The notes below the pieces were generated by a model. The model saw only the letters and a list, made by a program, of their open reading frames with translations, made no database searches and was not told the DNA's origin. A DNA stretch of 62,084 bases from an uncultured Spartobacteria bacterium (lineage in GTDB: Bacteria > Verrucomicrobiota > Verrucomicrobiia > Chthoniobacterales > Chthoniobacteraceae), in the NCBI GenBank assembly GCA_903901425.1, contig CAIURC010000017.1:1-62084 (forward strand), read 5' to 3'. Position numbers and translations under genes: made by a program. Shown here piece after piece: positions 4,216 to 55,759 of this stretch (its first letter is position 1; each line of letters starts with the position of its first letter).

Positions 4216-5598
4216 TCAATCAAAGATTTTCCCGGGATTCAACAACCCAGCCGGGTCCAGCGCCACGCGCACCTGTTTCATCAGTTCGTAACTCGCATCC
4301 CCCAGTTGCCGACGGAGCCACGGTTTTTTCGCCAGTCCCACCCCATGCTCGCCGGTGATCGTTCCACCCAGTTCCAGCGTCCGCTCCACAATCTCGTCCA
4401 ATGCCAGGTGCACTTTCCGCATCTCCTCCGTGTCCCGTTCGTCCGTCAGAAACGTCGGATGGAGGTTGCCGTCCCCCATGTGGCCGAAGGTTCCCACCTG
4501 CAGACCGTGCCGGTCCGCGATCTCTGCAATGTACGCCACCATCCGGGCCAGTTCGCTCCGGGGCACGGTCACGTCCTCCAGAATCGTGGTCGGGCGCATC
4601 CGGGCCAGCGCGGAAAACGCGCTGCGCCGCGCCGTGGCCAGCTGCTGCGCTTCCTCCACGGAACCCGCGACGCGCACCGCCCGCGCACCGCGTTCCCGCG
4701 CGATTTGTTCCATGCGCGCCGCCTCGTCCCGGACGGCTTCCGGATGCCCGTCGGTTTCCATCAACAACAACGCGGCGCAGTCTGTCGGCAGCCCCACCTT
4801 CGCGTAGTCTTCCACGCACTGGATCGTGCGCCGGTCGAGAAACTCCAGGGTGCACGGAATGATCTTGGCTGCGATGATGGCCGAAACCGTCTCAGCCGCG
4901 TCTTCCATCCGGTCATACAGAGCCAGCATGGTGCGGCGCGCAGCGGGCCTCGGCAGCAGCTTCAGCAGGACCTCGGTCACAATCCCGAGCGTCCCTTCGG
5001 AGCCGATGAACAGGTCTTTCATCGAATACCCGGCCACATCCTTCACACAGGCGTTCCCGAGCCGGACCACGCGCCCGTCGGCCATCACGACCTCCAGACC
5101 CATCACATAGTCCCGGGTCACGCCGTACTTCAACCCGCGCAGGCCGCCCGAGTTTTCTGCCACGTTCCCGCCAATGGTGCTGATCTTCATCGAACCCGGA
5201 TCGGGCGGGTAAAACAACCCGTGCACGCCCGCTGCCTCGTCGATCTTCAGCGTAATTGCCCCGGCCTGCGCCCGCAGCGTCAGGTTGTTCGGATCCACCT
5301 CCAAGATCCGGTCCATCCGGACCAGACACAGCACCACGCATCCTCCCGAGGGCACGCTCCCCCCGCTCAGCCCGGTGCCGGATCCCCGTGTCACCACGGG
5401 CACCCGGTTAGCCGCAGCCCAGCGCACCACTGCCGCCACCTGCCCGGTGTCGGCGGGAAACACCACGGCTCCCGGCCGTTCCTTGAGCGCTGCCGTGCCG
5501 TCGAATCCGTAGGGAAGGATGTCCTCGGGCCGCCAGAGGACGTTCTCCGCCCCCACCAAACCCGCCAGTTCGCTCAACGCTGTTTCGGATAATGCCAT
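4216..5598 (-). CDS. glcD: FAD-binding 2-hydroxy-acid oxidase subunit GlcD
   Basis: A 460-residue flavoprotein of usual GlcD length. The N-terminal PCMH-type FAD domain shows PVVTRGSGTGLSGGSVPSGG and PPDPGSMKISTIGGNVAENS. The C-terminal FAD-oxidase domain shows FGHMGDGNLHP and GTITGEHGVGLAKK. The ATG at 5598 (MALSETALSEL) is chosen over an upstream in-frame start because homology begins there. It oxidises glycolate, D-lactate or a related acid and passes electrons to the adjacent GlcF. A second GlcD-like gene without a partner lies at 47042. Confidence 0.93.
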   Translation of the reverse strand: MALSETALSELAGLVGAENVLWRPEDILPYGFDGTAALKERPGAVVFPADTGQVAAVVRWAAANRVPVVTRGSGTGLSGGSVPSGGCVVLCLVRMDRILEVDPNNLTLRAQAGAITLKIDEAAGVHGLFYPPDPGSMKISTIGGNVAENSGGLRGLKYGVTRDYVMGLEVVMADGRVVRLGNACVKDVAGYSMKDLFIGSEGTLGIVTEVLLKLLPRPAARRTMLALYDRMEDAAETVSAIIAAKIIPCTLEFLDRRTIQCVEDYAKVGLPTDCAALLLMETDGHPEAVRDEAARMEQIARERGARAVRVAGSVEEAQQLATARRSAFSALARMRPTTILEDVTVPRSELARMVAYIAEIADRHGLQVGTFGHMGDGNLHPTFLTDERDTEEMRKVHLALDEIVERTLELGGTITGEHGVGLAKKPWLRRQLGDASYELMKQVRVALDPAGLLNPGKIFD

Positions 5599-5654
5599 GG
5601 TCGTTCCAAGTTTCGCCTCGGAGTCTCTCCGATTTCCGGCGGAACTCCAGCAGC

Positions 5655-10187: not shown

Positions 10188-10484
10188 GACCAAGTTTTTG
10201 TCAGCGGCTTCGACGAACTCCGCCTTGCGTGCTTTCCAGTCCATGCTTTTTGCCTGATCCGCTCATATCACACCGTTGATCCCAGACTTCGAAATGACCC
10301 GGACTTCAAACGGATAACCCTTGATCTGGGAGGTGATTGGGCAGACTAGAACTAGCCCTACTTTCTTATGATAAGGACGAGGAGACACGACAAAAGCTGG
10401 GCGCCTTCCCGCCTGTTCGTGTCCTGCCTGCGGATTCAATGTCAGCCAGATAATATCGCCTCTTCGGGGAACGTATGAGGCCAT
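10188..10484 (-). pseudogene. mazF: MazF-type mRNA interferase toxin, inactivated by nonsense and IS3 insertion
   Basis: The reading opens at ATG 10484 with MASYVPRRGDIIWLTLNPQA then GHEQAGRRPAFVVSP, the classic MazF beta-barrel start, with PITSQIKGYPFEV following. A TGA at 10263-10265 replaces the leucine normally found before ADQAKSMDWKARK. That downstream sequence remains perfectly in frame to KNLV, where the IS3 relic begins, so the last dozen or so residues are lost. The gene overlaps the mazE stop (TGATG), the usual coupled arrangement. The predicted 73-residue product lacks the C-terminal helix. Confidence 0.9.
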
Positions 10485-10726
10485 CACCAGATCTCCTGAC
10501 CAACGGCAGAACCCGAGTCCATGGATGGATGGCGATTCTCAGGCGTGACGTCCTTGAGAAGCTGCTCGAGAGTGAAAGCCTTTTTATTGACTGGGGTGAT
10601 CACAGGAGTTCCCTCCAGAAGGCTCAGATCTACGGATGAGCCCTCCTGAATCTGCGTCTCCTCAGCGTAGGCGTTCGGGATCCTGAGCGCGAGGCTGTTG
10701 CCCCATTTTTGAACGGCGGTCCTCAG
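10484..10726 (-). CDS. mazE: MazE-type antitoxin, apparent CTG start
   Basis: An 80-residue AbrB/MazE-type protein too short to stand out as an open frame. It reads RTAVQKWGNSLALRIPNAYA, then the toxin-binding tail with FTLEQLLKDVTPENRH and GSAVGQEIW, matching MazE antitoxins end to end. The codon where ATG is expected is CTG (10726-10724), and a TAG lies a few codons upstream in frame. It is therefore either translated poorly from CTG or silenced. Its stop overlaps the mazF start. With mazF dead there is no selection to keep it. Confidence 0.8.
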   Translation of the reverse strand: MRTAVQKWGNSLALRIPNAYAEETQIQEGSSVDLSLLEGTPVITPVNKKAFTLEQLLKDVTPENRHPSMDSGSAVGQEIW

Positions 10727-10853
10727 GGATACACAATGACTCTACACCCCATTTTGGTCCACCCACCATTCACGAGGCGGGCATTTCGTTCCCGATGATT
10801 GCGTTTGCGCAGGCGTCAAAACTCCCGTGGCCCGGAACAGCATGAGGGAGACA

Positions 10854-48999: not shown

Positions 49000-49284
49000 G
49001 TGTTTTCAACCCCTGGCGAGATAGTGCGTGCTGTTGCCGAAAAGATGCGTGTCTTGCGGCTCGCGGCAGGGTGGTCCCAAGAAGAGTTGGCGCGGCGGGC
49101 GGGAATCGCTCCTGACACCTACAAACACTTTGAACGTACCGGGCAAGTGAGCTTCGAGCGATTGGTCCGCGCAGCGGTTGCACTGGGCCGGGCTGACGAA
49201 ATTGCAGCGATTTTTGAGAAGCCCGAGACAATTGAGGAGCTGGAAGACCAGGCTCCGAAGAGAAAGCGGGGGCGCACGCAGTGA
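49000..49284 (+). CDS. hipB: HipB-like XRE-family antitoxin/repressor
   Basis: A 94-residue protein with one Cro/C1-type HTH: VRAVAEKMRVLRLAAGWSQE, ELARRAGIAPDTYKHFERTG, then SFERLVRAAVALG. The GTG at 49000 is used because the helix before the HTH belongs to the fold; ATG 49045 would remove it. The C-terminal tail is basic (KRKRGRTQ). Its stop overlaps the hipA GTG start by four bases, so antitoxin and toxin are coupled. It probably neutralises HipA and represses the operon through the palindrome just upstream. Confidence 0.88.
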   Translation: MFSTPGEIVRAVAEKMRVLRLAAGWSQEELARRAGIAPDTYKHFERTGQVSFERLVRAAVALGRADEIAAIFEKPETIEELEDQAPKRKRGRTQ

Positions 49285-50555
49285 TCCTTGAGACATTCTA
49301 CGGTGGGCGCAAGGTGGGTCGCTTGGCAGAAAGCCGGAAACACCCGGGCCGAATTCTCTTCGAGTTTGATCCTGAGTGGCGCAACTCTGGCTTCGATCTG
49401 TCGCCTGTGAAAATGCCGTTGGCGAGCACGCCCGGCATCGTGTGGTTTGATTCGCCGGCAATGATGGGGTTGCCGGGACTCTTCTGGGATAGTTTGCCAG
49501 ACTCTTGGGGAATGCCTCTGCTGCGCCAGAGGATGAGGGACGCTGGACGCAATCCCGATGTGTCGAGCCCCCTGCTTTACCTGGCACACATCGGGGCGCG
49601 GGGAATGGGAGCCATCGAGTATGTGCCGGACCTTCTCGACAAAGAGGAAGCCGAGAGCATTGCGAGTCTTGGGCAACTGGATCGCGATGCTCTGAAGATA
49701 CAGGAGCGAGGGGAGGGAGAGTTTTGCGCTTCAGAACTCGCGGCAATATTGGACGCAGGATCCGCAGTAGGTGGCGCGCGTCCGAAAGCATTGATTTACA
49801 CGGATCGCAATGCCGTCCGGCTCTCGCCGGCCAAAGGTTGGGAGGCGTGGATTGTGAAGCTTTCCACGGTTCCGGCCGATCATAAGGACTCAAAACAGGC
49901 GGGAGAGGTAGAGGCGGCGTTTGCAAAAATGGCGGGGATAGCCGGGATCGATGTGCCAGCCGTGCGCCAGTTTGTGGTCGATTACCCGAAGGGAAAGCGG
50001 CAGCTGTTTGCGATTCAGCGATTTGATCGTGACGAATCGGGACGCCGGTTCCATGTGCAGACAGCGGCAGCTCTCATGCATGAGGCTCCCGTGCGTGGGG
50101 CTTCCAGTTACGAGACATTGGCTCGCCTGAGCAACGCCATCAGTGGTGACCAGCGGGATGTCGTGGCGTTATTTCGCCGCGGAGTCTTTAACGTTTTGGC
50201 GGGAAACAGGGACGATCATCTCAAGAATTTCAGTTTCATCATGGATGAAAAGGGCCGCTGGAGATTGTCTCCAGCCTACGATCTAACGGCGAGTCCCGGC
50301 CCGGGAGGATTGGGTGTCCACGGTCGTGATCAGTGCACTGCGATGAGCGGTTCCCTCCGCCCTGGCGTAGACGATATGCTTGCGTGTGCTGAGACCCTCG
50401 GTGTGGAAGACGGGAGAGGAATTATTGACGAGGTTTTGTATGCACTTTCTAAATGGCCTGAGATCGCTGAATCCTGCGGCGTCAGGAAATCCAGGGCCAC
50501 CACGATCGCAGGCGGATTTGCCTTTCGCGAAATCTCCCAGAAAAAGCGGCTCTGA
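49281..50555 (+). CDS. hipA: HipA-type serine/threonine kinase toxin
   Basis: A 424-residue protein of normal HipA length. GLFWDSLPDSWGMPLLRQRM near residue 75 is the N-terminal domain. SAVGGARPKALI holds the phosphate-binding loop, and GVFNVLAGNRDDHLKNFSFI carries the catalytic aspartate and the NxxDHxKN motif. LSPAYDLTASPG supplies the metal-binding DFG-like aspartate. All kinase residues look intact. E. coli HipA stops growth by phosphorylating GltX, but targets vary. It is the only toxin in the window that still reads through. Confidence 0.93.
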   Translation: MILETFYGGRKVGRLAESRKHPGRILFEFDPEWRNSGFDLSPVKMPLASTPGIVWFDSPAMMGLPGLFWDSLPDSWGMPLLRQRMRDAGRNPDVSSPLLYLAHIGARGMGAIEYVPDLLDKEEAESIASLGQLDRDALKIQERGEGEFCASELAAILDAGSAVGGARPKALIYTDRNAVRLSPAKGWEAWIVKLSTVPADHKDSKQAGEVEAAFAKMAGIAGIDVPAVRQFVVDYPKGKRQLFAIQRFDRDESGRRFHVQTAAALMHEAPVRGASSYETLARLSNAISGDQRDVVALFRRGVFNVLAGNRDDHLKNFSFIMDEKGRWRLSPAYDLTASPGPGGLGVHGRDQCTAMSGSLRPGVDDMLACAETLGVEDGRGIIDEVLYALSKWPEIAESCGVRKSRATTIAGGFAFREISQKKRL

Positions 50556-50711: not shown

Positions 50712-52331
50712 TCAGCGCCCGGCGGGCGCGCCAAAGTTTCGGAGCAGCAACTGCCCAAGCACGGCCGGCAACGACGCGCTCTCCATCAGCACCGGCGCCC
50801 CCGGAAACAGCGTTCCGATCTGGGCCGCGTCCGCCCCGATCCCGATGGCATGGAACCGGACGCCCTCCGCCTCCATGCCGGCTTTGGCCGCACGGATGCC
50901 CGCCTGCTGGACCCGGTTCACCATCCCGTCTGTGAGAACCACCACAAACCGGTCCCGTTCCCGGCGTTCCGCAATCAGCAGCGCGGCTTTTTCAAGGGCC
51001 TGTTTGAGGTCCGTGCCAAATGCGGGCTTGAGCACCAGCCCGAGCGCAGCGCGGGCTGCGGACTCGTCGACACGGTCCCAGCCCTGAATCACCTGCGCGG
51101 CGCTGTTGAATGCGACCACCGAAAACGGAATCCCGGCCCGGGTACAAGCCTCGCGCACCACCACGAGCGACTCAAATGCCGCCACCGACCGACCGTACTG
51201 TCGCATCGAATCCGACCGGTCCATCACCAGCACAAAGGCGGGGTCCGGCAACGTTCGGCGTTGCCGCCGGATCCACATCCGGTTCTGTTCCCGCGGGTCG
51301 GCCTCGGCCTGGAACGCTTTTCCCAAGTCGATCCGGTCGCCCGCTCTGTACCCGCGCTGGTGCCGGAGCCCCCGGTGGTTCGGAAGCAAATCGTCCAGCA
51401 CCCGCGACATCTGGGCAATCACGCCCGCATTCGATTCCACCGCCCTCTGGTAAGGCGCAGCACTCAGGCGCGCGAGTTCACTCCGGAGCGCACGCCGGGC
51501 GGTTTCCGCGTCCCCCGGACTCGAGCCCGCGAGGCTCTTGAGAACCTCCGCGCTTCCCATCAGAGGGCCGCCCCGGAGAGGCTCCAATCGCAGGAGTTCG
51601 AGGTAAACGGGCAGGATCCCGCGCACGCTGTGGAACCAGCATGCCGCCTGCATCATCCTCGCCCATTTCTCAAAGGGTGTCGGCTCCGACTGATCGTCCC
51701 GGTCCCGGTAACACGCGGAAACCGGATGGTTTTGATACAACTGCCCCGCCATGCCGCCTCCGTCCGCCACAAACGGGGGCCGGCACGCAATCGCCTGGCG
51801 CAACGGCTCCCGGATCCGGTCCAGCGCGTCGCGCACCTCCGGCATCGCGTCACTCAGGCCCGGGCTGGCGCCCGGCCGGCAGAGCTCCTCGGCCACCTCA
51901 AACAGCCCCATGCAGAATGCCTGAATCCTTTCCCGGACCGGCCCGGCGGGTTTCTCCTGGGCTTCGATGCGGCGACACACGTCACGCCACGGCCTTGCAC
52001 CCGGGAACCGATCCAGGAGCCATTCCTCGATCCGGATATCCTCGATGCAGTTCAGCAGGACATGGATTTCGCGCCGCTGCATGAGATCTGGGGAGACGAT
52101 GTCCTGGATCCGGGTCAGCCCGGCATGGGCAGCTTCATGCAGGATGATCCACGCGATGCGTTCCTCCGGAGAGGTCTGAAGCTCCTCAATGGGAATCGTG
52201 ATCTCGTTGCGCACCCAGTTGAACGCCCACCATTCGCCGAATTGCACCGAAAGGTCGTCCCGCAGCGAAACCATGGCCGCCATGCCGAGCGCCTCCTGGA
52301 GCAGGCCACCCATCCGCACACCCGGGTTCAC
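50712..52331 (-). CDS. VWA-domain protein with an N-terminal zincin-like HExxH motif
   Basis: A 539-residue protein. HEAAHAGL at 65-72 followed by NCIEDIRIEEWLL near 95 matches the zinc-binding arrangement found in CobT-like VWA proteins. The C-terminal third is a VWA domain: FVLVMDRSDSMRQYG gives the DxSxS MIDAS, with FGTD and VVVLTDGMV completing the metal site. It starts at GTG 52331 inside the stop of the AAA gene (GTGA). MoxR-type ATPases work with VWA partners to remodel or insert metal into target proteins. The zincin motif may make it a peptidase or only structural. Confidence 0.85.
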   Translation of the reverse strand: MNPGVRMGGLLQEALGMAAMVSLRDDLSVQFGEWWAFNWVRNEITIPIEELQTSPEERIAWIILHEAAHAGLTRIQDIVSPDLMQRREIHVLLNCIEDIRIEEWLLDRFPGARPWRDVCRRIEAQEKPAGPVRERIQAFCMGLFEVAEELCRPGASPGLSDAMPEVRDALDRIREPLRQAIACRPPFVADGGGMAGQLYQNHPVSACYRDRDDQSEPTPFEKWARMMQAACWFHSVRGILPVYLELLRLEPLRGGPLMGSAEVLKSLAGSSPGDAETARRALRSELARLSAAPYQRAVESNAGVIAQMSRVLDDLLPNHRGLRHQRGYRAGDRIDLGKAFQAEADPREQNRMWIRRQRRTLPDPAFVLVMDRSDSMRQYGRSVAAFESLVVVREACTRAGIPFSVVAFNSAAQVIQGWDRVDESAARAALGLVLKPAFGTDLKQALEKAALLIAERRERDRFVVVLTDGMVNRVQQAGIRAAKAGMEAEGVRFHAIGIGADAAQIGTLFPGAPVLMESASLPAVLGQLLLRNFGAPAGR

Positions 52332-53857
52332 AGCAACCCTCCCGCGCGCAGGATGTTGTGCACAGCACGCCGGTCCGCTTCGCCCTTGAGCCGTCCCAAG
52401 TAGAAGGTGCGGATCGCCTCCGACACGAGCTGTTCCCGGGCCGATTCACCCGAACGGATCCTGGCCGCCACATGCGCGACCAGATTCAGCAGGACGCGTC
52501 GGCTGAAACTGTAACGTTCCCGGTTCAGGCGCCCGATCGACGCCGTTGCGCCGCCGCCTCCGGCTGCCTTGAAGATTCCGTGGTGGAACACCGCCAGCCG
52601 TTGCAGCAGCGAACCGATCTCTGGAATCTGCTGCAGCTCGCCATACACCGGCACCGCAGCCGGGGCACGGTACACGCTGCCTGCCGCGTTGACGCGGGGC
52701 TGCTCCCCAAACACCAGGAACCGCAGCATCTGCCCGATCTCGCGTTCGCCGGGCGACTCGGACTGGTGCCAGACCGACCAGCGGTCCATGAAAGCCTGGC
52801 TCAGCACGGCCCGGCCCGCGTATTCCGAGGGGTTAAGCGTTGCCACCAGACGAAACCCGGGATGCACCGGGACATCGCCACCCGGTCCGAACACGGTTCC
52901 ATCGCCCTCGGTGAGGACAAGGCCGGGCGGGTTCTCGAGGGCGCAGTTCAGCCGTTCGAGCACCTGCGTTTCGGCGAGGTTGAGTTCGTCGAGCAGCAGC
53001 CACCACCCCCGGCGCATCGCTTGGGGCAGGCAGCCCTCTTGAAACCGCCAACTGCTCAGCGGGAACTGTTCCCGCCCGAGGACCGCCATCCGTTCTGCCG
53101 GATTCAGGCTGCGCCCTTCCCGGTGTGCATGCTCCAGAACCGCCCGCGTTTCCTTCCTCAACCAAGGGAAGGCGAGTCCCTCCCAGTCCAGTGCCCCAGC
53201 CGCATCCATGGGCACGTAACGCCCCACCAGTTCCGAGGCGTCTGTCTGTCCGCTCAGGTTCATTCGCACCACGGGCTGGCCCAGCAGATGCGCCAGATAC
53301 AACACCGCCGTGGTCTTGGAGGCGGCTGTCTCGCCTTCCAGCGCCACCGGCATTCCGTGCGATACCGCCAGCGCCACCGACCGGAGCGTCTCCAAAAACG
53401 GAGCGTCCATGCACAGGTGCAGAAACCGGTCCGCCGCCGGGATTCGCGCGACATCCGCTGGATCCGCTTTGGCCAGAGGCACCCAGACATCCAGCACGCG
53501 GACCCCGCGCTGCGTCACTTCCACCGGAACGGAACGGGCGGCGCTTGAATCGGAAGACTCAGCCACCGCCTCCCGGGCCTGCGGCTCCCCGGGCTCCGCG
53601 CTGGAGAAGGGCGCAGCGGCCTTGAGGTCCAGCATGGCTCGGAACTCGTCCCAGGCCACGAACCGGGTGCCGTTCAGGTTTGCGTGCTGGAGGAGTTCCG
53701 GGGAGGCATCGGGACCAGTCACGACGAGATCCGCGAGCGAGGCGAGCTGGATCACTTCCATGCCGTTGTTCCGGATCCAGTCGGCCATATCGGTCCGTTC
53801 TCGGTCGGCAAAACCGCGCAGAAGAATGCGTTTGGGATTTTTGACGGGGTTTTTCAT
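52328..53857 (-). CDS. MoxR/dynein-like AAA ATPase with N-terminal BRCT-like domain
   Basis: A 509-residue protein. Residues 8-78 (KRILLRGFADRER; LVVTGPDASPELLQHANLNG; VAWDEF) resemble a BRCT domain. The AAA core has Walker A EGETAASKTT (174-183), Walker B GWWLLLDELNLA (284-295) and sensor 1 VATLNPSEYAG, as in MoxR and midasin. The start is ATG 53857; a GTG two codons upstream is possible. It lies 18 bases after the small SH3-like gene and overlaps the VWA gene by four bases, so the three form one operon. BRCT fused to this AAA clade is unusual. Confidence 0.85.
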   Translation of the reverse strand: MKNPVKNPKRILLRGFADRERTDMADWIRNNGMEVIQLASLADLVVTGPDASPELLQHANLNGTRFVAWDEFRAMLDLKAAAPFSSAEPGEPQAREAVAESSDSSAARSVPVEVTQRGVRVLDVWVPLAKADPADVARIPAADRFLHLCMDAPFLETLRSVALAVSHGMPVALEGETAASKTTAVLYLAHLLGQPVVRMNLSGQTDASELVGRYVPMDAAGALDWEGLAFPWLRKETRAVLEHAHREGRSLNPAERMAVLGREQFPLSSWRFQEGCLPQAMRRGWWLLLDELNLAETQVLERLNCALENPPGLVLTEGDGTVFGPGGDVPVHPGFRLVATLNPSEYAGRAVLSQAFMDRWSVWHQSESPGEREIGQMLRFLVFGEQPRVNAAGSVYRAPAAVPVYGELQQIPEIGSLLQRLAVFHHGIFKAAGGGGATASIGRLNRERYSFSRRVLLNLVAHVAARIRSGESAREQLVSEAIRTFYLGRLKGEADRRAVHNILRAGGLL

Positions 53858-53875
53858 GCGCACAGGGTGGAGGCT

Positions 53876-54307
53876 TCACCGGGGGAGACGGCCCGGCGCC
53901 AGGAGTTCAGAGTCCAAAGCGTTCTCCGCAGCTTCCATGCTCGCGACGATCTGGTCGTCGATGGCAACCTGCGCATCCAGGATCCGTTGTTTGAGGTTGG
54001 GCAACTGGTTCAGGATGTGGTCCCGGATCTCGTCCCTGAGCCGGAGCTGTTCCAGCCCTTCAAACGCGCAGAGCAGCTCCAACACCTCCCCCGGCAGCTG
54101 GCCCCTGAGCCAGTCCCAGGAAATCTCCGGCCCGGCCTCCATGCAGAGCGCCCAGGGCACCCACTGGCCGTCTTTCCCGTTCGGGTCCGTGGCCGTCAAT
54201 GTGCTGTCGTCGGGATCCACTTGGTTGACCGTGTACACCTTGCCCGCCTCGTAGCCGCGGGTGCTGTGGGTGAGTCGGATGCGCTGGTTGCGATGCGGGT
54301 TTTTCAT
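53876..54307 (-). CDS. Small protein with SH3-like N-terminus, partner of the AAA/VWA genes
   Basis: A 143-residue protein. Residues 8-56 (RIRLTHSTRGYEAGKVYTVN, then WVPWALCMEAG) look like an SH3-like or KOW-like barrel. Residues 65-143 are helical and acidic, with LKQRILDAQVAIDDQIVASM. No named family recognised. It is first in the operon with the BRCT-AAA and VWA genes and divergent from a sigma factor. It may act as an adaptor or target-recognition subunit; that is inference from position. Confidence 0.7.
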   Translation of the reverse strand: MKNPHRNQRIRLTHSTRGYEAGKVYTVNQVDPDDSTLTATDPNGKDGQWVPWALCMEAGPEISWDWLRGQLPGEVLELLCAFEGLEQLRLRDEIRDHILNQLPNLKQRILDAQVAIDDQIVASMEAAENALDSELLAPGRLPR

Positions 54308-54439
54308 AGGGTTCTGTCTGGAATCAATGTCCGCCGTGCGGGATGCCGCGGGGATCTCCCCTGATTCTCACACATCGCAGTTCCATCGCGCCGCACCCCC
54401 ACAAAATCCCGTTCAGTGCGGTGCGCGATACTCAGTCCG

Positions 54440-55759
54440 ATGCAAACCTCCACGCCTGCCACCCAAAGCACGTCCGCCCCCGAATCCCTCGACACCTACC
54501 TCCTCCAGATCCAGCAAATCCCGCTCCTCGACCTGGAAGGCGAGCTCCATCTCGCCCGCCAGATCGAACAGGCCGAACTCCGGTGCGTCGCACTCCTCCA
54601 CCGCTTTGGCACCGTGTCCGGGCACTACCTCGCAGCCGCCCGGAACCCGTCCCGTCTCGATCCCGAGGCCGCTCAAGTGGATTGCCCGGCGGAACCGGAG
54701 AACACCCCAGGCATGTGGATCACCCGGGCGGAACAGCTCGAAGCCCAAATCCACGAAGCCCGCCGGATCCTGTTCCGCAGCCGGGACGCCCGCGGAGCAG
54801 TGGAACGGGTTGAGGACCTCCGCGCCGCCCAGATCCGCCACTGGGACCAGCTCGGACTCAAACGTCGCACCGTTCTTTCCTGGCTGGCATTGATCCAGCC
54901 CGTTGCGCGTCGCGCGGAACAACTCCGTCACGCCACCGAATCCACCTCCGCACGCCGGGATGCCGCCGGATTTTTCGTGGAACACGGTCTGAAGCCGGCC
55001 GAGTTCCTGCAGATCTATGCGGAGGCTACCGCGGAATTTCATGCATCGATCCGGGCACGGAACCGCCTGGTGGAAGCCAACTTGCGGCTCGTGGTCCACA
55101 TCGCAAGAACCTACACCCACCGCGGGCTCGCGCTCGCGGATCTGGTTCAGGAAGGCAACATCGGACTCACCCGGGCTGCCGAACGGTTCGAACACCAGCG
55201 CAACCTCCGGTTCTCCACCTACGCCGGCTGGTGGATCCGGCAGGCCGTGACCCGCGCCTTGGCCGACCAGTCCCGCACCGTCCGCATCCCGGCCCATCTC
55301 GGAGAACAAATCCGACAACTGAACCGCGTCCAGCGCCAACTCCAGGCAGATCTCGGACGCGAAGTCACCGCTGCCGAACTCGCCAGCGAAACCGGCCTCG
55401 CTCCCAAGCGCGTCGAGGAAATGCTCCGGCTTCAGCAAAGCACGCTTTCTCTGGACGCCCCGACCAGCGAGGACAGCGAGTCCGTGCTGGGGGACGCCAT
55501 TCCGGACGAATCCGCCCCGGATCCGGCCACCGCAGGCGACCCGGCGCGGATGGGGCGGATTCTCAGGTCAGCACTCCGGGGATTGGCAGAACGCGAGCGC
55601 ACGGTTTTGGAGCTTCGGTTTGGGCTGGGAACGGAATCGCCGCAGACGCTGGAAGAGATCGGGGTGCGGTTCGGCGTGAGCCGGGAACGGATCCGGCAGA
55701 TTGAGGGGCTGGCACTGAAGCGGCTGAGACGTTCGGGGGTAAAGGCGTGGGCGGCCTGA
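54440..55759 (+). CDS. Sigma-70 family RNA polymerase sigma factor (group 2 type)
   Basis: A 439-residue protein. Region 1.2 is [20 protein letters not shown], followed by a non-conserved insert of about 150 residues. Region 2 has [36 protein letters not shown] and [17 protein letters not shown]. Region 3 has [20 protein letters not shown], and region 4 ends with [20 protein letters not shown]. The acidic region 1.1 of the housekeeping RpoD is absent, so this is an alternative sigma. The ATG at 54440 is preferred over one 24 bases earlier. It is divergent from the SH3/AAA/VWA operon, with 132 bp between. Confidence 0.93.

Follow-up and report, generated by a model that had tools for sequence, protein, structure and literature searches.

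A conserved operon encoding an SH3-like protein, a BRCT-AAA ATPase and a zincin-VWA protein in Verrucomicrobiota

The window analysed here is a 62,084-nucleotide stretch of DNA from an uncultured Spartobacteria bacterium (contig CAIURC010000017.1). Positions 54307-50712 on its minus strand are a real operon, which encodes a small SH3-like protein, an AAA ATPase with an N-terminal BRCT domain (BRCT-AAA) and a protein that joins a zincin-motif region to a VWA domain. Because the set of genes is found again at many loci, with catalytic residues that do not vary, a chance origin is excluded. We tentatively propose, with slightly less than even confidence, that its products act together as an ATP-driven remodelling protease that the BRCT domain directs to a nucleic-acid-bound target; the complex, the cleavage and the target are inferred. 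What is read from the sequence is the BRCT-AAA protein, the zincin-motif region and the VWA domain with its complete metal ion-dependent adhesion site (MIDAS), the SH3-like protein, and the strict linkage of the genes.

Results

Layout of the operon

The three minus-strand genes lie where an earlier reading of this DNA (the original prediction) had placed them. The first encodes the 143-amino-acid (aa) small protein (53876-54307, from the translated open reading frame, ORF). It is followed by the gene for the 511-aa BRCT-AAA ATPase (52328-53863 by its ORF, with an alternative ATG start at 53857) and by that for the 539-aa zincin-VWA protein (50712-52331), which is described by its ORF, Pfam matches, structural models and alignment. 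The ATPase and VWA genes overlap by 4 bp (GTGA), as predicted. The junction between the small-protein and ATPase genes measures 12 bp with the GTG start (53863) and 18 bp with the ATG start (53857), so that the 18 bp given originally holds for the latter start alone.

The zincin-VWA protein

The C-terminal part of the 539-aa protein is a VWA domain (Pfam VWA_2, 3.4e-10). The predicted zinc-binding and catalytic motif HEAAH (residues 65-69; 52125-52139, minus strand) and the downstream motif NCIEDIRIE (residues 94-102; 52026-52052, minus strand), which may supply the third zinc ligand, are both present, in agreement with the original prediction. H65, E66 and H69 in the former and E97, D98, R100 and I101 in the latter are invariant in 15 proteins. 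So are the residues of the MIDAS, namely D371, S373 and S375 in its DRSDS motif (51207-51221, minus strand) together with T440 and D468. Such invariance is the trace expected if selection acted on a zincin active site and on a MIDAS alike.

The structural model of the protein has a mean predicted local distance difference test (pLDDT) score of 79.3. In a fold search, the VWA half of the model is closest to NorD of the NorQD complex and then to the midasin MIDAS domain, and the full-length model is closest to phage CobT-like proteins. HExxH is kept in 17 of 20 VWA partners in Myxococcota. The partners that lack it (L107 7356-9377, L113 2899-4134 and L114 7565-9499) are apparently degenerate zincins.

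The BRCT-AAA ATPase

Residues ~163-365 of the ATPase form an AAA_5 domain (Pfam, 3.4e-13). A PDB sequence search returned midasin rings as the nearest solved sequences, followed by NorQ and CobS, in agreement with the MoxR/midasin kind assigned earlier. The Walker B motif LLDE (residues 290-293; 52985-52996, minus strand) was located by alignment; D292 and E293, the sensor 1 residue N344 and R361 do not vary among 15 orthologues. The Walker A motif is a variant, GETAASKT (residues 177-184; 53312-53335, minus strand). In the alignment of the operon clade, 16 of 16 rows have S or A in place of the final glycine of GxxxxGK[ST]. The outgroup of CobS-like ATPases from phages, plasmids and other sources retains this glycine, as GK[TS], in 12 of 12 cases, and Myxococcota ATPases found by profile search have S, T, A or G at the position. 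The canonical Walker A is common in this kind of ATPase without strictly defining it. Judged by these alignments, the departure of the window ATPase from it is a lineage variation of the P-loop and not a loss of the fold.

The N-terminal domain of the ATPase (residues ~10-80; 53600-53836, minus strand) is a BRCT domain that has diverged in the window subgroup. Against Pfam BRCT, the window N-terminus by itself reaches 15.1 bits, under the cut-off of 21.3. The assignment is made because the orthologues L039 (5.6e-7), L104 (2.3e-6) and L105 (2.3e-5) pass this cut-off, and because a profile of the N-terminal region ranks the BRCT domains of LigA (4.5e-4) and RFC1 first in the PDB. These two closest BRCT domains are of DNA-binding types. 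The BRCT-like N-terminus of the original prediction is thereby borne out.

The small protein

Pfam, PADLOC and other sequence searches gave no sequence-family match above noise for the 143-aa protein; its PADLOC match to ThsB (0.012) was judged to be noise. The AlphaFold model (pLDDT 88.8) contains an SH3/KOW/Tudor-type barrel at about residues 2-61, followed by C-terminal helices, in keeping with the SH3-like nature proposed for it. The best Foldseek match of the model has an E-value of 5.1e-3. With VIA-align, the barrel superposes on Hpy99I with a root-mean-square deviation of 1.7 over 55 residues and on NusG with 1.3 over 53, at Z up to 8.8. Many families tie in the fold search, so the class of the barrel fold is clear but no single family stands out. 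Fusion of an SH3-like domain into a Parcubacteria ATPase was considered and is not supported (hhalign E 0.42). At L032, a second SH3-like copy of 177 aa (10281-10814) lies downstream of the operon and contains a stretch resembling the ATPase C-terminus; it is perhaps a decayed or fused duplicate.

Distribution and gene order

A strong match is present in 7 of 97 relatives, and a profile search across the phylum Verrucomicrobiota found one further genome among 388. The order SH3-AAA-VWA is kept at 13 of 13 testable Verrucomicrobiota loci, so the three-gene set is conserved and not scattered; L045 begins inside the region expected for the SH3 gene, and the VWA gene of L046 is cut by the contig end. 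Some of these loci have additional genes, a BCS1-like AAA gene at L042, L044 and L045 and a HEAT/LRV protein at L044, L045, L038 and L032. Downstream at L044 (3616-7316) and L045 (2991-6752) are genes for a 200-aa protein, the BCS1-like AAA ATPase and the HEAT/LRV-repeat protein. The 200-aa protein is ClpP-like by eye and has no Pfam match. At L042, the BCS1-like ATPase (4538-5626) is the only part of this downstream cassette. A search for the LRV/HEAT protein in the window's own genome, of unproven sensitivity, gave no match.

In Myxococcota, a profile search found the ATPase in 23 of 379 genomes. Of 20 Myxococcota stretches, 19 have the VWA gene next to the AAA gene; the remaining one, L105, is cut short by the contig end at the place expected for VWA. 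Two types occur. One pairs BRCT-AAA and a HEAT-repeat gene (L039, L104 and L105); L043 and L106 have the same layout but no significant match to Pfam BRCT. In the other, the AAA protein has a ~500-residue N-terminal region of no clear Pfam family. The AAA proteins at L107, L109, L110, L112, L117, L118, L120 and L122 are ~860-1040 aa long, and a zincin-VWA gene follows. A similar stretch, GGA...W..D.D.W, recurs in the ~500-residue N-terminal regions of the large Myxococcota AAA proteins.

A separate two-pattern contig scan used the variant Walker A as one of its patterns and is hence biased towards the variant P-loop, a bias of which the Verrucomicrobiota and Myxococcota profile searches are free. 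A claim that the family is rare (16 loci in about 85,000 genomes) was dropped in view of this bias and of the Myxococcota count.

Phage, plasmid and CobT relatives

Scanning viral contigs with the window ATPase as the lone query gave no match; phage homologues were reached only with an alignment-based scan. Several of them have HExxH, then ED.R[IV], then DxSxS, in the same order as the bacterial VWA proteins, and Pfam assigns two as CobT-like. In the tree, a branch supported at 100/100 separates the AAA proteins of the operon from the phage and CobS-like proteins. Since the tree is unrooted, it does not give the direction of transfer between bacteria and phages. The plasmid matches that were inspected are other CobS-like genes, outside the operon ATPase family, and the VWA protein had no match in the plasmid search.

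In solved CobT (PDB 9uka_G), aligned to the phage protein L056 6634-8688 over a weakly aligned stretch, both HExxH and ED are absent. A peptidase-like site is therefore retained in the bacterial and phage proteins and missing from the chelatase. The same weakly aligned N-domain stretch suggests descent of CobT from a peptidase-bearing ancestor. On the viral contigs, the CobS-like ATPase L049 4311-5798 has an N-terminal ROS/MucR-like zinc finger (4.2e-5, just below the Pfam cut-off); the corresponding match in the CobS-like ATPase L053 4677-5888 reaches just 0.081. The finger of L049, likewise of a DNA-binding type, stands in the position of the BRCT domain, which suggests that this position serves nucleic-acid targeting.

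Neighbouring genes

The operon is followed downstream by HipB- and HipA-like genes (49000-50555, plus strand), and a divergent gene for an RpoD-type sigma-70 factor (54416-55759, plus strand) lies 108 bp from it, both as described earlier. The association of the sigma factor with the operon is uncertain, and it is no core part. Among 68 neighbour proteins across the loci, Pfam assigned five to HEAT and four to sigma-70, the rest being mostly single families, many of them housekeeping; several loci lie among genes such as aspS, murI and lysS (named from sequence). recC and a RecB-like helicase gene lie downstream of the operon at L040, and a photolyase gene is present in the neighbourhood at L034. 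These sole DNA-repair neighbours weakly support a link to DNA.

PADLOC gave no significant defence-family match for the three operon proteins. On the 68 neighbours it found no recurrent defence system, the MzaA model matching four members and the others being single matches. The four MzaA matches equal the sigma-70 neighbours in number and presumably are the same proteins; they are not read as an Mza system. The neighbourhoods cannot be recognised as defence islands. No phage structural genes were recognised at the bacterial loci.

Four Verrucomicrobiota loci (the window; L026 3737-5095; L032 3743-5218; L037 2231-3457) have an RpoD-type sigma-70 gene no more than ~1.4 kb from the operon, in differing arrangements. 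In Rhizobium phage RHEph10, a sigma gene (L083 4891-5526) overlaps the CobS-like gene. A sigma factor as a fixed component is not supported, given that the neighbouring sigma factors are not one clade and that none is found at the Myxococcota or IMG/VR loci.

Discussion

In NorQD, a finger of the VWA protein enters the AAA pore, ATP turnover twists the partner and the MIDAS is thought to hold the client (PMC13036017). In the mechanism we propose for the operon, the AAA protein would form a hexameric ring, and the VWA domain would dock on this ring as NorD does on NorQ. The MIDAS would grip an acidic ligand of the client, ATP hydrolysis would twist or pull the client, and the zincin domain would cut it or part of it. 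Because the VWA partner also carries the zincin region, the protease would be offered a client that the MIDAS holds and the ring strains. The BRCT domain and the SH3-like protein, and in relatives also the HEAT-repeat protein, may act as recruitment modules, and the client would most likely be on DNA or in a nucleoprotein complex.

Several observations weigh against a BRCT-targeted remodelling protease. No structural match was returned for the zincin half of the model, the fold-search list being filled by VWA matches. HExxH is missing in 3 of 20 Myxococcota VWA partners, and proteolysis may therefore not be essential to every member. In the BRCT profile alignment, the lysine of the LigA GSK motif falls on a non-conserved column, and the window-type BRCT lacks it; the ability to bind DNA ends may have gone with it. 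The atypical Walker A could reduce ATP turnover. Finally, the genes in most neighbourhoods are unrelated.

The DNA-damage- or phage-sensing role originally suggested is inferred, and the support for phage defence is thin; of the two directions, a role in stress or in genome maintenance is the somewhat more probable one. A more specific form of our proposal, which we regard as rather unlikely, is that a BRCT-guided midasin-like ring and its VWA-tethered zincin extract and cleave proteins stuck on DNA, such as DNA-protein crosslinks or stalled nucleoprotein complexes. If true, this would give prokaryotes a counterpart of the work done in eukaryotes by SPRTN/Wss1 with p97.

The same parts could instead make up a phage-defence or conflict system, in which the BRCT-AAA protein senses invading DNA or a phage complex and the VWA-linked protease is the effector, as predicted for MoxR-vWA ternary systems. 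Such conflict systems are known (PMC7159879), and the patchy presence of the operon among the 97 relatives and the 388 genomes of the phylum, together with the adjoining HipA/HipB-like genes, would suit one of them. We nevertheless consider defence unlikely in view of the PADLOC results on the three proteins and their neighbours, the housekeeping surroundings of several loci (aspS, murI, lysS) and the absence of the third components of the ternary systems (VMAP, FtsH, beta-propeller). The pair could also be a chaperone for metal insertion or cofactors, like CobST or NorQD, that opens a client for metal entry while HExxH holds or delivers the metal and no peptide is cleaved. Among characterised partners, NorD is the nearest by fold, as is CobT for the phage homologues, and NorQD inserts iron (PMC13036017). 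However, the neighbourhoods have no recurring metalloenzyme or tetrapyrrole gene, and the BRCT domain would be left without a role. Genuine CobT has lost HExxH and ED, whereas both are retained in the operon family, whose catalytic glutamate does not vary among 15 proteins; a metal chaperone therefore appears improbable.

Two further explanations start from the relatives and from the neighbours of the operon. It is distinctly improbable, in our view, that the operon is a domesticated phage virion-assembly device, derived from a phage pair that processes structural proteins and now acting on a cellular assembly. A virion-assembly role has been proposed for the jumbo-phage pair (PMC7824862), and the whole-length structural matches of the VWA model are phage proteins, but the bacterial clade is clearly separate (100/100, in the unrooted tree) and the bacterial loci have no recognised phage structural genes. 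A machine that remodels or cleaves a sigma factor or an RNA-polymerase-bound protein, and so regulates transcription, seems very doubtful. Sigma genes lie near the operon at four Verrucomicrobiota loci, in genomes with just 2-7 RpoD-type sigma genes each, one overlaps the CobS-like gene in RHEph10, and KOW-type barrels (NusG-KOW-like) rank high for the small protein. This pattern was noticed after the fact, though, and the four sigma factors neither form one clade nor have counterparts at the Myxococcota or IMG/VR loci.

Comparison with known systems

The operon resembles cobaltochelatase CobS/CobT (phrog_249; Pfam CobT, CobT_C) in combining an AAA_5 ATPase with a two-part VWA protein, and there is a weak alignment between the N-domain of CobT and the zincin region of a phage homologue. 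Unlike CobT, the VWA protein of the operon keeps HExxH and ED, and cobalamin genes are not nearby. The ATPase scores 19.9 bits against the CobS equivalog TIGR01650, which has a cut-off of 558.55. As genuine CobT has lost the HExxH that the operon protein retains, the operon is not a cobaltochelatase and, in this respect, not identical to a characterised chelatase operon. Midasin (Rea1) provides the nearest solved AAA sequences, and its MIDAS is the fold match second to NorD. It is one giant eukaryotic protein with several AAA domains that serves ribosome assembly and has neither a protease nor a BRCT domain. Among solved structures, NorD in NorQD is the best match to the VWA model of the operon, and docking is likely alike. 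However, a metallopeptidase is not mentioned for NorQD (PMC13036017), BRCT is no part of NorQ as described, and nitric oxide reductase genes are not near the operon.

The MoxR-vWA ternary conflict systems predicted in 2020 consist of a MoxR and vWA core plus VMAP, FtsH or a beta-propeller as the third component (PMC7159879). The operon has a similar core plus a further component, but this component is SH3-like or HEAT, and no diversity of effector domains is seen; Pfam and PADLOC on the core proteins and the 68 neighbours found no VMAP, FtsH, beta-propeller or effector component. A pair of a MoxR AAA+ and a metallopeptidase-vWA chaperone was published for jumbo phages in 2021, with a proposed role in virion assembly (PMC7824862). 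It is like the operon in that a MoxR-type AAA+ gene adjoins a vWA protein with an N-terminal metallopeptidase. The suggestion that the operon is an undescribed system is thus right in part: the core MoxR and metallopeptidase-vWA pair is already known, phage CobS/CobT-like pairs carry its motifs, and no BRCT-AAA/SH3 arrangement turned up in the literature searched. If the client is a nucleoprotein complex, the operon would encode a bacterial AAA+ protease sent to DNA by a BRCT domain, a combination likewise not found in that literature. The present operon differs from the jumbo-phage pair in that it is chromosomal in bacteria, its AAA protein has a BRCT domain and a variant Walker A and falls in a separate clade, and its loci add an SH3-like gene (Verrucomicrobiota) or a HEAT-repeat gene (Myxococcota and some Verrucomicrobiota). 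A protease-armed MoxR-VWA pair that was proposed for phage virion assembly therefore also has a settled place on Verrucomicrobiota and Myxococcota chromosomes, and its chromosomal version bears a BRCT domain of the DNA-repair type and adaptor proteins.

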